A stretch of DNA of 21,110 nucleotides, taken from positions 1-21,110 of the IMG/VR virus record IMGVR_UViG_3300030329_005272; one strand, 5' to 3'. Origin of the DNA: a virus. Within the stretch, counting starts at the first letter, position 1; the number at the start of each line of letters is the position of its first letter. Under the pieces are notes generated by a model, which was given only the letters and a program-made list of their open reading frames with translations, was not told the origin of the DNA and made no database searches. A program made the translations under genes and the position numbers. Shown piece by piece: positions 4,225 to 11,403 of the stretch.

Positions 4225-4329
4225 ATGATCGATGGAATTGAATCAATGCTGATGGCCTTGGCTTTGGTCTTAGGGAAAGAAGAGGACTGGTTGGTTCGTC
4301 AGGTGAATTCCATTAGAGGGCAGAGATGA
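4225..4329 (+). CDS. possible 34-residue leader peptide/small ORF
   Basis: ATG 4225 opens a 34-codon frame (MIDGIESMLMALALVLGKEE, then a Trp/Arg-containing tail) whose TGA overlaps the ATG of the next gene as ATGA. This is the same coupling used by most genes of the chain. A weak GGTG lies four bases upstream of the start. It is the first frame after the operator-covered promoter. The evidence is the overlap and the position, not similarity. Confidence 0.4.
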   Translation: MIDGIESMLMALALVLGKEEDWLVRQVNSIRGQR

Positions 4330-4628
4330 GACGAGTAGAGATTACTCCCGGCCAGCAGTTCGGGGTGTTTACGGTTATTCGAGAGGCTTCCCGCTCGGGA
4401 GAGAAGCGAATGGTTCATTGCCGCTGCTCTTGCGGTAATACGAGGATCGTCCGGCTCGGAAGTCTTCGGTCAGGCCACACTCAGAGCTGTGGAGAGTGTG
4501 GATACCTTTCGTATAAGGGTAAGAAGAAGTCGGTTTCAGCTTGGTCCAAAGAGCACAAGATCAATGAGAGCACTTTGCGTTCTCGGCTCAAGAACATGTC
4601 ACTTAAAGAAGCATTGGAGAAGAAATGA
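4326..4628 (+). CDS. HNH-less homing-endonuclease-type DNA-binding protein
   Basis: 100 residues. The N-terminal half (GQQFGVFTVI near 9-18, then a CRCSCG zinc-knuckle-like cluster near 32-37 and SCGEC near 54-58) matches the N-terminal domain of the HNH enzyme nested in the terminase intein ([20 protein letters not shown]). The C-terminal 32 residues (SVSAWSKEHKINESTLRSRL, then SLKEAL) match that enzyme's final helix-turn-helix segment ([26 protein letters not shown]). The nuclease core between them, about 95 residues in the other protein, is missing. It is therefore probably a DNA-binding protein, either a domesticated regulator or a deletion remnant. The coding frame is intact, coupled by ATGA on both sides, and lies directly behind the 4150-4179 promoter. 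Confidence 0.75.
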   Translation: MRRVEITPGQQFGVFTVIREASRSGEKRMVHCRCSCGNTRIVRLGSLRSGHTQSCGECGYLSYKGKKKSVSAWSKEHKINESTLRSRLKNMSLKEALEKK

Positions 4629-8586: not shown

Positions 8587-11403
8587 ATGCCTGGGAAGGG
8601 TAGTCCCTACTACGATCTGGTTCCTCGGGACGTCATCGAAAACCTCAAGTGGCGTATTGCTTGCCGAGAACGCGCGATTGAGGACATTGAATTTCGGGAA
8701 TGTCTTATTCAGGCGTGCGAAGAAGACCTTCTCTTTTTTATGGGGTTCGCCTGCATCGGAAAGGGGACTCGCGTCGTAACTGACAGAGGACCAGTCCCAA
8801 TCGAAGATGTTGAAGTGGATGATCGTGTCTGGGACGGCGCTGAATGGGTCTCTCACGAAGGGGTATTGCACAAGGGTCGTAGGGCCAGTATATTCGCATA
8901 CCAAATCAACGTTACTCCTGACCATAAGATTTGGACGAAAAATGGCTGGAAAATCGCAAGTGAAAGACATGACCGGGAAGACGTTCGGCTACCTAACGGT
9001 TATTCGGAGAGATGGGAGTTACCGAAACACTACGAGGGCAGCTTGGTTGTGCCAGTGCAAGTGCGGAAAGCAGAGGACGGTTGCTGGAGACAACCTGAGA
9101 CTGGGGAAGAGCACGAGCTGCGGTTGCAAGTCGAACGAATCCAAGGTTACGCACGGGAAAACCGGGACGAGGGCTTTCAATACTTGGAACGGGATGCTCC
9201 AGCGATGCACCAATCCGAACAACCAAGCCTGGGACGATTATGGTGGTCGAGGAATAACAGTCTGCGAAAGCTGGTTCAAGTTCGAGAACTTTTACGAAGA
9301 CATGGGCGATCCTCCAGAAAACAGAAGTCTGGACAGGATAGACAACGATCAAGGGTATTCACCCGACAATTGTCGTTGGGCAACTCGTTCTCAGCAGAAC
9401 TCGAATCAGAGGAAACGGCGCGTGAAGCTGTTTCAGACTGCAAAGGGTCTAATGAGTATAGCTCAGATAGCAGAAGAGGCAGGCATAACAGCTCAGTCTG
9501 CGGGATACAGGCTGAGAGCGGGTTATTCCCCGCAGGAGCTTCTTCTTCCGTCGCACTCTACACGGAAGTCTACGACTTGTTGAATTGCGGCACTCGCCAG
9601 TGCTTCACCGTACTTGATGCCGATGATAGGCCCCTGCTGGTTCACAACTGCTGGGCTTACGATCCGCGTGCGAAGCATAAAGTTGTTCCGTTCATACCAT
9701 GGCCTCATCAAGAATATGTTTTCCTGAGTATCGATGAAGCGATAGATATTGCTCAGGACAACGAAGAGACTCTGGACGTTCTCGTTGATAAGTCCCGCGC
9801 ACAGGGCGGCACGTTCGGCTACCTTTGGGTTGATCTTCGCCGTTGGCTTCGAGACAAGATGTTTCTTGCCGGCTACGTGACTCGTAATGAAAAGCTAGTC
9901 GACTCCAAGACCGACGCCAATACCGTGCTTTGGAAGATTCAGTTTGCTTTAGACATGCTTCCCGTGTGGATGGTTCCGGAATACGAACGATCGCTGAACC
10001 AGCACACATTCATCAACAAGGACAATGGTTCGACTCTGGTAGGCTTCGCTGCTGGCCAAGACGTGGCCGCTGGTGGCCGTGCGACGGTCTTTACGATGGA
10101 TGAAGCAGGTGCCAAGGACTTCGTTGCTGGGGGCAAAGACGAGGACGTAATGGAGTCTCTACACGATGTGACCAACTGTCTGCGCCTCGTTTCCGCTCGT
10201 TACATCGACCAGGGTGTGTTTCACGAGGCGTGCGAAGCTGGTGGTGGTGAAGGCGGCATGCATCTAATACTGGACTGGAAAGATCACCCGGTTCACGGCA
10301 AGAACAAATACATCGTCAAGGATGGCAAGGCCAAGGCCGTCAAGGAAGAAGAAGAGGCAGCGGTAGATGAATACATCTCCAGCAAGCCGGAGTTAAAGAA
10401 GAACCTTGAGAGGAAAGGCTTTAAGTTTGAGGACTGCATCCGAAGTCCTTGGTACGACATGCGTTGTTTGAGGAAAACGGCGCGGCCGCAGTTGATTGCC
10501 TCTCAGCTCGACAGAAATCCCCGCGGAGCTGTTGGTAAAGTATTTCAGTCGCATTTCCTAGAGGAGATGAAGGAGAAGCACGCTAAGCCACCAGTGTGGG
10601 TTGGGAAGCCTGTGTTCGACAAAGAGACACTTGATCTGATTGGGCTCATTAAGCAGGATGATGGCCCGTTGGCTCTATGGTTTGATCCTGGACCGGGAAA
10701 CATGCCGCCGATGGGGCCGTTTACGCTCGGGAGCGATATTGCCCTTGGTGGAGAGTCTGCCTACGCTAGTAACTCGGTTACTTCTGGAATTGACGATCGA
10801 ACTGGAGAGCAAGTTCTGGAGTACACCGTCAAGGGGATGGTTCCTGTCAACTTTGCTGACATGACGGTTGGTCTTGCAATTTGGATGCGTCGGGCACTTC
10901 TTGCGTGGGAAGATTCTGGGATGTCCGGAAGCTTCGCAAAGCAAGTTATGGAAGTCAGGTATTACGGAAACGTTTACTACCGAGAGGTTTCAGCACTTGG
11001 TCAGGAACGTAAGTCAAACAAGCCCGGTTGGCCTTGTAGGGACGCTGACAAAGCCGAGATGTTTGATAATTTCACACTTGGAATGCAAGATGGAAGATAC
11101 ACGCCTCGTTCCTTCGAGCTGATCAAGGAGTGCGGAGAGTACGAGTGGGATAAAGGAAAGATCATTCATGCTCCAACTCAAAACCATGGTGCGAAGGACA
11201 AGAACCACGGCGATCGTTGTATTGCTGCTGCTGGTGCTTATTGGATTTATTCACAAGATAAGCTAAAACACAAATCGATCGACATCGATCTAGAGCCTGA
11301 AACAGCCGAGTACGGCAGTTTCAAATGGAGAGAGCAGCAGGAAATGATTTATAACAAAGTCGGAAGCCCGGAATATTCAATTCGAGATTTACTAAGGAGT
11401 TGA
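8587..11403 (+). CDS. terL: phage terminase large subunit interrupted by an intein
   Basis: 938 residues as translated. Residues 56-354 are an intein, leaving a 639-residue terminase. GGAG lies seven bases upstream of the ATG. After the intein come IPWPHQEY (about 370-377, adenine-motif region), a Walker A-like [11 protein letters not shown] (402-412), a Walker [10 protein letters not shown] (about 501-509), then a nuclease domain with GSDIALGG (Asp717), WEDSG, and a C-terminal HGDRC acidic site. The protein is the DNA-packaging motor and headful or cos nuclease acting at the portal. The intein sits upstream of the ATPase core, between GFA and CWAYDPR, not at the Walker A site where many ATPase inteins sit. 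Packaging therefore depends on protein splicing. The 58-residue gene at 11405 and the portal follow immediately. Confidence 0.93.
8752..9648 (+). mobile_element. intein in terL (299 residues)
   Basis: The element starts at Cys56 with [20 protein letters not shown] (block A). Block B is [15 protein letters not shown], with the TxxH residues Thr110 and His113. Block F is [17 protein letters not shown] (about 326-342) and the end is LLVHN followed by Cys as the first C-extein residue. All standard splicing positions are present: first Cys, block B Thr/His, penultimate His, terminal Asn and Cys+1. About 200 residues between blocks B and F are Arg/Ser/Glu/Gln-rich with no recognisable domain. The homing endonuclease lies in another frame of that same DNA (8942-9583). 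Confidence 0.92.
8942..9583 (+). CDS. HNH homing endonuclease nested out of frame in the intein
   Basis: 213 residues in the +1 frame relative to the intein. The N-terminal domain ([17 protein letters not shown] at 37-42, SCGC at 59-62) is zinc-knuckle-like. The HNH core runs from about 70 to 157: [20 protein letters not shown], then [12 protein letters not shown], then [22 protein letters not shown]-terminal helix-turn-helix segment (about 170-202) probably contacts the target. It should cut intein-less terL alleles so that repair copies the intein in. The frame is open further upstream to ATG 8807, but homology begins near residue 11 of this start, which has GGA six bases before it. It starts just after block B and stops within block F. 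The linker-like composition of the other frame suggests that this frame is the one under protein-level constraint. Confidence 0.88.

Follow-up and report, generated by a model that had tools for sequence, protein, structure and literature searches.

Inteins are usually described as one protein in which the splicing and endonuclease parts are read in the same frame. Canonical full-length inteins, with nested LAGLIDADG or in some cases HNH endonucleases, are recognized by a Hint domain with blocks A, B, F, and G, a catalytic Cys1, and a His-Asn/Cys junction (the slash marks the splice point), with the endonuclease slot lying between blocks B and F and the insertion at conserved sites of DNA-processing genes. 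A second arrangement is the fractured gene, which Dassa et al. are said to have described in 2009 as a split intein with a free-standing endonuclease gene between its halves. The statement that all endonuclease domains within inteins share one conserved insertion site is found in a structural paper (PMC6801210). TerL inteins are among those listed in a survey of inteins in mycobacteriophages, in which the displayed passages dealing with HNH and reading frame make no mention of a shifted-frame endonuclease (PMC5050341). The closest precedent in the full text that was searched is the ShiLan domain, which together with Pacc40 gp60 represents out-of-frame HNHs in phage methylases, carried in a gene without a splicing domain (PMC11855218). 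The literature searched, outside which most subscription journals and preprints lie, yielded no account of an intein whose endonuclease is read in a different frame, and such a two-frame design is apparently undescribed.

The locus analyzed here is located on a single metagenomic virus contig from IMG/VR (IMGVR_UViG_3300030329_005272), whose whole 21,110 bases are referred to below as the window. An earlier note, made from the sequence alone, had proposed that the window's terL gene contains an intein, the frame of which remains open and supplies the splicing residues at both ends, and that an HNH enzyme with its own ATG and stop lies in the +1 frame of the same DNA. The features of the host gene and of the splicing frame are as follows.

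8587..11403, + strand: terL (terminase large subunit) precursor ORF of 938 aa, interrupted by the intein (weak phrog_5989 match, E=0.0007-0.0018; intein-less orthologues)
8587..8751, + strand: N-extein (alignment to orthologues L084-L086 as far as FMAAT/C)
8752..9648, + strand: intein in the splicing frame, 299 aa, with Hint halves at residues 1-85 and 270-299 and a disordered linker between them (alignment, fold model)
8752..8784, + strand: intein block with the catalytic Cys1 (invariant in 31 aligned inteins)
8911..8949, + strand: intein block B (T55, H58, G65, and W66 invariant; HNH ATG 8942 overlaps its NGW codons)
9568..9615, + strand: intein block F (HNH stop TGA 9581-9583 within its Leu-Asn codons)
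9631..9648, + strand: intein block G, PLLVHN, with the penultimate His and terminal Asn (HN invariant)
9649..11403, + strand: C-extein, first residue Cys+1 (orthologue alignment)

The terL ORF is continuous and open throughout, and the window TerL is 67 to 71% identical to intein-less TerL proteins. In orthologues L084-L086, the empty site reads FMAAT/CWGYDPRAK or FMAAV/CWGYDPRAK, so that the flanks join cleanly and the insert has a precise empty site. The insert itself corresponds to residues 56-354 of the precursor, begins with CIGKGTRV, ends with LLVHN before Cys, and displays the expected landmarks in order (CIGKGTRV, TPDH, NGW, VYDLLNCG, and LLVHN/C). Across 31 relatives, blocks A, B, F, and G are conserved with Cys1, TxxH, and HN/C; T55 and H58 of the block B TxxH and the C-terminal pair H298 and N299 are invariant in the aligned inteins, and of the two nucleophiles Cys1 is invariant in 31 sequences and Cys+1 is present in the window. 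Profile searches, which the earlier note had suggested for both frames, connected the HNH frame to phrog_374 and the intein family profile to the Mtu RecA intein; at Pfam cut-offs neither frame of the window was recognized, the intein frame giving a weak match to Hint_2 (E=0.007). An AlphaFold model built with the family alignment has a Hint fold with a pLDDT of 93 to 98 in residues 1-85 and 270-299 and a pLDDT below 50 for most of residues 93-265, and a Foldseek search with this model returned the RecA, DnaB, and DnaX mini-inteins (probability 1.00, E about 1e-3). By all sequence and fold tests made, the insert is an intein, the splicing itself being predicted. The features of the second frame are given below.

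8942..9583, + strand: HNH endonuclease ORF nested in the +1 frame, with a second possible start at 8969 (phrog_374 match, fold model, synonymous shuffling)
9056..9127, + strand: zinc-knuckle-like motif CxCG...SCGC at the N terminus of the HNH protein (four Cys invariant in 33 sequences)
9242..9412, + strand: HNH-like core YGGRG... (PHROG match; weak match to the I-HmuI core, E=0.032)
9431..9541, + strand: helix-turn-helix-like segment at the C terminus of the HNH protein (three helices in the model; weak Pfam HTH_20 match, E=0.19)

The nested ORF lies wholly inside the intein and is free of stops as far as its TGA at 9581-9583, with ATG codons at 8942 and 8969. Since the ATG at 8942 spans the Asn64/Gly65 codons of the block B NGW and the TGA at 9581 spans the Leu277/Asn278 codons of the block F VYDLLN, the HNH gene coincides precisely with the slot in which inteins usually carry an endonuclease; nested HNHs occupy the corresponding place between blocks B and F. 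Compared with PHROGs, this frame matches phrog_374, annotated as HNH endonuclease, at E=1.4e-68 as well as 12 further PHROGs, the phrog_374 match covering residues 47-206 of the ORF counted from 8807, i.e., the zinc knuckle and the HNH core. Both parts of the proposal, the shifted HNH ORF and the open intein frame with its splicing residues, were therefore borne out. The AlphaFold model of the HNH frame has a mean pLDDT of 89.9 and three C-terminal helices, and a Foldseek search with it against PDB gave no significant match. The suggested order of zinc knuckle, HNH core, and helix-turn-helix holds for the four invariant cysteines, the core, and the three helices; the catalytic triad, on the other hand, appears to be noncanonical. 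Catalytic positions aligned to I-HmuI, in what is a weak alignment, are Arg, Asn, and Gln, and the HNH family, nested and free-standing alike, has an invariant Arg at the first catalytic His of I-HmuI and Gln at the third position, a later Asn in I-HmuI. The product of the HNH frame is thus likely, but less than certain, to be a nuclease by family membership, its cutting being predicted. Elsewhere in the window, a 100-aa ORF at 4326-4628 (+ strand) contains the zinc knuckle and the C-terminal part of the same HNH family without the HNH core (phrog_374, E=6.9e-16), and could possibly be a regulator or a remnant.

Relatives were sought with the intein N half, with the HNH, and in bacterial genomes, intein N-parts being drawn from IMG/VR, isolated phages, and bacterial MAGs. 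The three profile scans selected on the intein N half, independently of the HNH frame, and comprised the best 80 loci each of 318, 380, and 414 relatives. Among the matches listed (best 80 loci per scan) there are 199 distinct intein N-parts, of which 175 have an HNH within 800 nt; relative to the intein, this HNH lies in the +1 frame in 111, in the +2 frame in 64, and in frame in none. Of the 175, 168 have an intein frame that reads through the HNH without a stop. Two patterns that the earlier note had set against its own proposal, an HNH in frame with blocks B and F and the absence of an open intein frame from the relatives, are thus respectively missing from the 175 listed and at odds with these 168. 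Distant inteins with an in-frame HNH may exist beyond the best 80 loci per scan. At least 149 elements are nonredundant at 90%. Three bacterial MAGs share the design, as do the named phages APSE-1, APSE-2, Shewanella SFCi1, Gardnerella AB1, and four Caulobacter phages. The interrupted genes encode TerL, with three insertion sites, family A DNA polymerase, with several, and SNF2/DEAD helicases. In the APSE-1 record, the HNH is already annotated as P46, starting late and overlapping P45, the polymerase. Judged from these comparisons, the two-frame design looks widespread and mobile.

Chance was ruled out as the reason for the open frame by synonymous shuffling and by free-standing HNH controls. 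In the window element, 13.2 intein-frame stops would be expected after shuffling of synonymous HNH codons, against none observed; for 69 nonredundant elements, 420 intein-frame stops are expected and none is seen, and the third frame has 849. Since elements were admitted to this set only with the intein frame open over at least 500 nt, the unbiased figure is the 168 open among the 175 listed. In 68 nonredundant free-standing HNH controls, the -1 and -2 frames are closed without exception, the mean numbers of stops in the two shifted frames being about 21 and 11. When close pairs are compared, most substitutions in the overlap affect the third position of HNH codons, and the HNH protein diverges about half as much in amino acids as the intein frame does; in the N-terminal Hint part, constraint lies on the intein frame instead. 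This pattern by region indicates that splicing is selected at the ends and the nuclease in the middle, where the intein frame need only stay open. Strong protein-level constraint on both frames was accordingly rejected for the intein middle, with the HNH frame conserved and the intein frame not. The idea of dual coding stands insofar as both frames are open in 168 of the 175 listed, but constraint in the overlap falls on the HNH frame, the intein frame there being a freely evolving disordered linker. A pair of inteins from one metagenome, L146:4422 and L150:4186, is identical except for a 531-bp (177-codon) deletion in L146; being a multiple of three, the deletion removes most of the HNH, keeps the intein frame, and leaves a 135-aa mini-intein. 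By sequence, this pair would represent a natural nuclease knockout with the splicing frame kept.

The reading that we regard as very probable is that the window carries a mobile intein whose homing endonuclease is an independent gene in a shifted frame, with splicing, HNH translation, cutting, and homing of the terL copy all predicted. The terL mRNA would be read in two frames: (i) the terL frame would give the precursor, whose Hint halves would fold together, excise the 299-aa intein, and join the exteins, the stretch between blocks B and F being merely an open, disordered loop, and (ii) in the +1 frame, ribosomes would initiate within block B or immediately downstream of it, producing a free HNH protein that ends inside block F. 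This protein would recognize and cut or nick intein-less terL, after which repair would copy the whole intein across. A nuclease gene with its own start and stop cannot occupy the host frame, and hence its own sequence must avoid host-frame stops.

Compared with the systems described at the outset, the element shares the Hint domain, blocks, junction residues, endonuclease slot, and type of insertion site with canonical inteins, but its endonuclease stands outside the spliced protein, as a separate +1 (in relatives also +2) ORF with its own start and stop; with none of the 175 listed in frame, it is not a canonical endonuclease intein. It has in common with fractured genes an N half, an autonomous endonuclease gene, and a C half, and differs from split inteins in that its intein frame continues through the endonuclease gene within the ORF 8587-11403. 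Group I introns with HNH ORFs likewise place an autonomous HNH ORF inside a self-removing element, whereas removal here would take place at the protein level; a group I intron was rejected, there being no Rfam match in the window at gathering thresholds. Free-standing phage HNHs of phrog_374 share the protein family and domain order and differ in that their shifted frames are never open (0 of 68).

Evidence for movement comes from the polA genes of APSE phages and not from the window's terL. The APSE polymerase genes measure 2982 or 2064 bp, and the difference is exactly the 918-bp intein. Occupied alleles differ from APSE-1 at 1 to 4 of 918 positions in the intein and at 24 to 40 of 1824 in the 5' flank; at the 3' flank the maximum is reached by L179, with 31 differences from APSE-1 in 240 bases downstream and one in the intein. 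Presence and absence of the element, together with inteins more alike than their flanks, suggest an element that is moving. Empty APSE alleles read GGK-Ile-Ile-ENICQ and occupied ones GGK-Ser or GGK-Leu, then the intein, then Cys-ENICQ, from which the splicing-competent Cys+1 seems to have arrived with the element. The intein-less alleles L175, L176, and L177 (APSE-8, APSE-7, and APSE-2 strains) were deposited as "partial, missing large internal portions"; from their sequences, these polymerases look like an intact empty site, and the two-frame design explains the misannotation. The same data bear on the rather unlikely alternative that the HNH is a free-standing parasite targeting a mini-intein allele lacking an endonuclease, so that the intein would be only a safe harbor and would not itself be mobilized. 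Mini-inteins without an HNH do occur in the same intein family (L006, L096, and L146), and the nested HNHs are scattered over different parts of the HNH tree, the slot thus having probably been filled more than once; however, the APSE alleles differ by the whole 918-bp intein, with no mini-intein among those seen, and L146 looks like a deletion derivative because its retained ends are identical and remnants of HNH DNA persist.

How the HNH frame would be translated can be judged from its start region. Among members of the window's subgroup, the position of the HNH start hardly varies; it is found within block B or directly behind it and follows an AAGG or GAGG-type sequence. In this subgroup, Shine-Dalgarno pairing has a median of -7.0 kcal/mol versus -2.4 kcal/mol for control codons (P=2.5e-15, the sequences being partly dependent). 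This signal is mostly a by-product of the K/E-G-W residues, and its excess over synonymous codons (P=0.012) gives slight support for selection of a Shine-Dalgarno site beyond the block B amino acids. The other two subgroups include several members without a Shine-Dalgarno signal or a good start nearby. Start position and Shine-Dalgarno pattern together favor independent initiation, which is the best reading for the subgroup and a plausible one for the window. A programmed +1 ribosomal frameshift in or near block B, which would yield a fusion of the TerL N-extein, the N half of the intein, and the HNH instead of a free enzyme, is distinctly unlikely. Such a shift is physically possible, as the open stretch of the HNH frame extends beyond its likely start back to 8807, and the window's own starts pair weakly (-3.0 at 8942 and -1.6 at 8969); against it, (i) in the +1A subgroup the start codon, ATG or GTG, hardly varies in position and is accompanied by Shine-Dalgarno-like sequence, (ii) the +2 members would require another shift, and (iii) a fusion would waste TerL and bind the nuclease to a dead-end product.

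Very improbable is a ShiLan-like case, in which an out-of-frame HNH would sit in a nonsplicing host gene that tolerates the insert's translation as a loop. This has a published precedent in phage methylases, and the likeness is substantial: there, too, the HNH ORF is shifted relative to an open host gene, the host frame reads as disordered, and the distribution is patchy (PMC11855218); a Pacc40 stretch matches the window's intein frame weakly (E=3e-3). For ShiLan and Pacc40, however, the authors found neither an intein or intron signature nor splicing motifs (PMC11855218), whereas the window's HNH lies inside a complete intein of an essential host gene, the full set of conserved splicing blocks and catalytic residues is found in it, its model has a Hint fold, and the hosts include essential genes (TerL and DNA polymerase) interrupted at conserved residues. 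With a full Hint domain modeled in the host frame, the window element is not of the ShiLan type. An assembly or sequencing artifact, or a pair of compensating indels in an otherwise ordinary intein with its HNH in frame, might be considered for a single metagenomic contig but has a negligible probability, sequencing error being ruled out by the at least 149 nonredundant relatives, among them isolate phages (APSE, Caulobacter, Shewanella, and Gardnerella) and three MAGs, with none in frame among those listed.

The separation of mobility and splicing into different proteins made from the same DNA would have several consequences: (i) the nuclease need not fold inside the precursor and could have its own production level; (ii) the ban on stops in the second frame ties the nuclease gene to splicing; (iii) with its size, the class would permit evolutionary tests on overlapping genes; and (iv) APSE and the Caulobacter phages provide named genomes for bench study of homing, splicing, and internal translation.

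In a quick tree, nested HNHs fall into separate groups, namely, the window's group, another +1 group, and a +2 clade, and all seven members of the window's HNH subclade are located in TerL genes. The occurrence of two shifted frames in separate tree groups indicates at least two origins, the number being uncertain because the free-standing HNHs in the tree were drawn with the window's HNH as query. In L100 (L100:3501), the N half of the intein is stopped early and is followed by the HNH and by a C half whose ATG overlaps the HNH TGA, and in L112:1287, L152:695, and L204:1679 the N half, HNH, and C half lie on separate ORFs; these four resemble split inteins with endonuclease genes between the halves. 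We lean, with some reserve, to the broader view that in a large, mostly phage-borne intein family a self-standing HNH in a shifted frame is the normal mode of endonuclease carriage, having arisen at least twice and in both shifted frames, initiating inside the splicing domain, and forming an evolutionary bridge between ordinary and split inteins.

Several individual loci deserve mention. L112, L152, and L204 are DNA polymerase genes, with a second intein of the same family in the same gene, and L095:3501 possibly has a split-intein arrangement. The terL gene of L094 contains two inteins (L094:1884 and L094:3270), each with its own +1 HNH. In the helicase intein L081:1273, a single indel displaces both frames, splicing and HNH, at once, reflecting either decay or a sequencing error.
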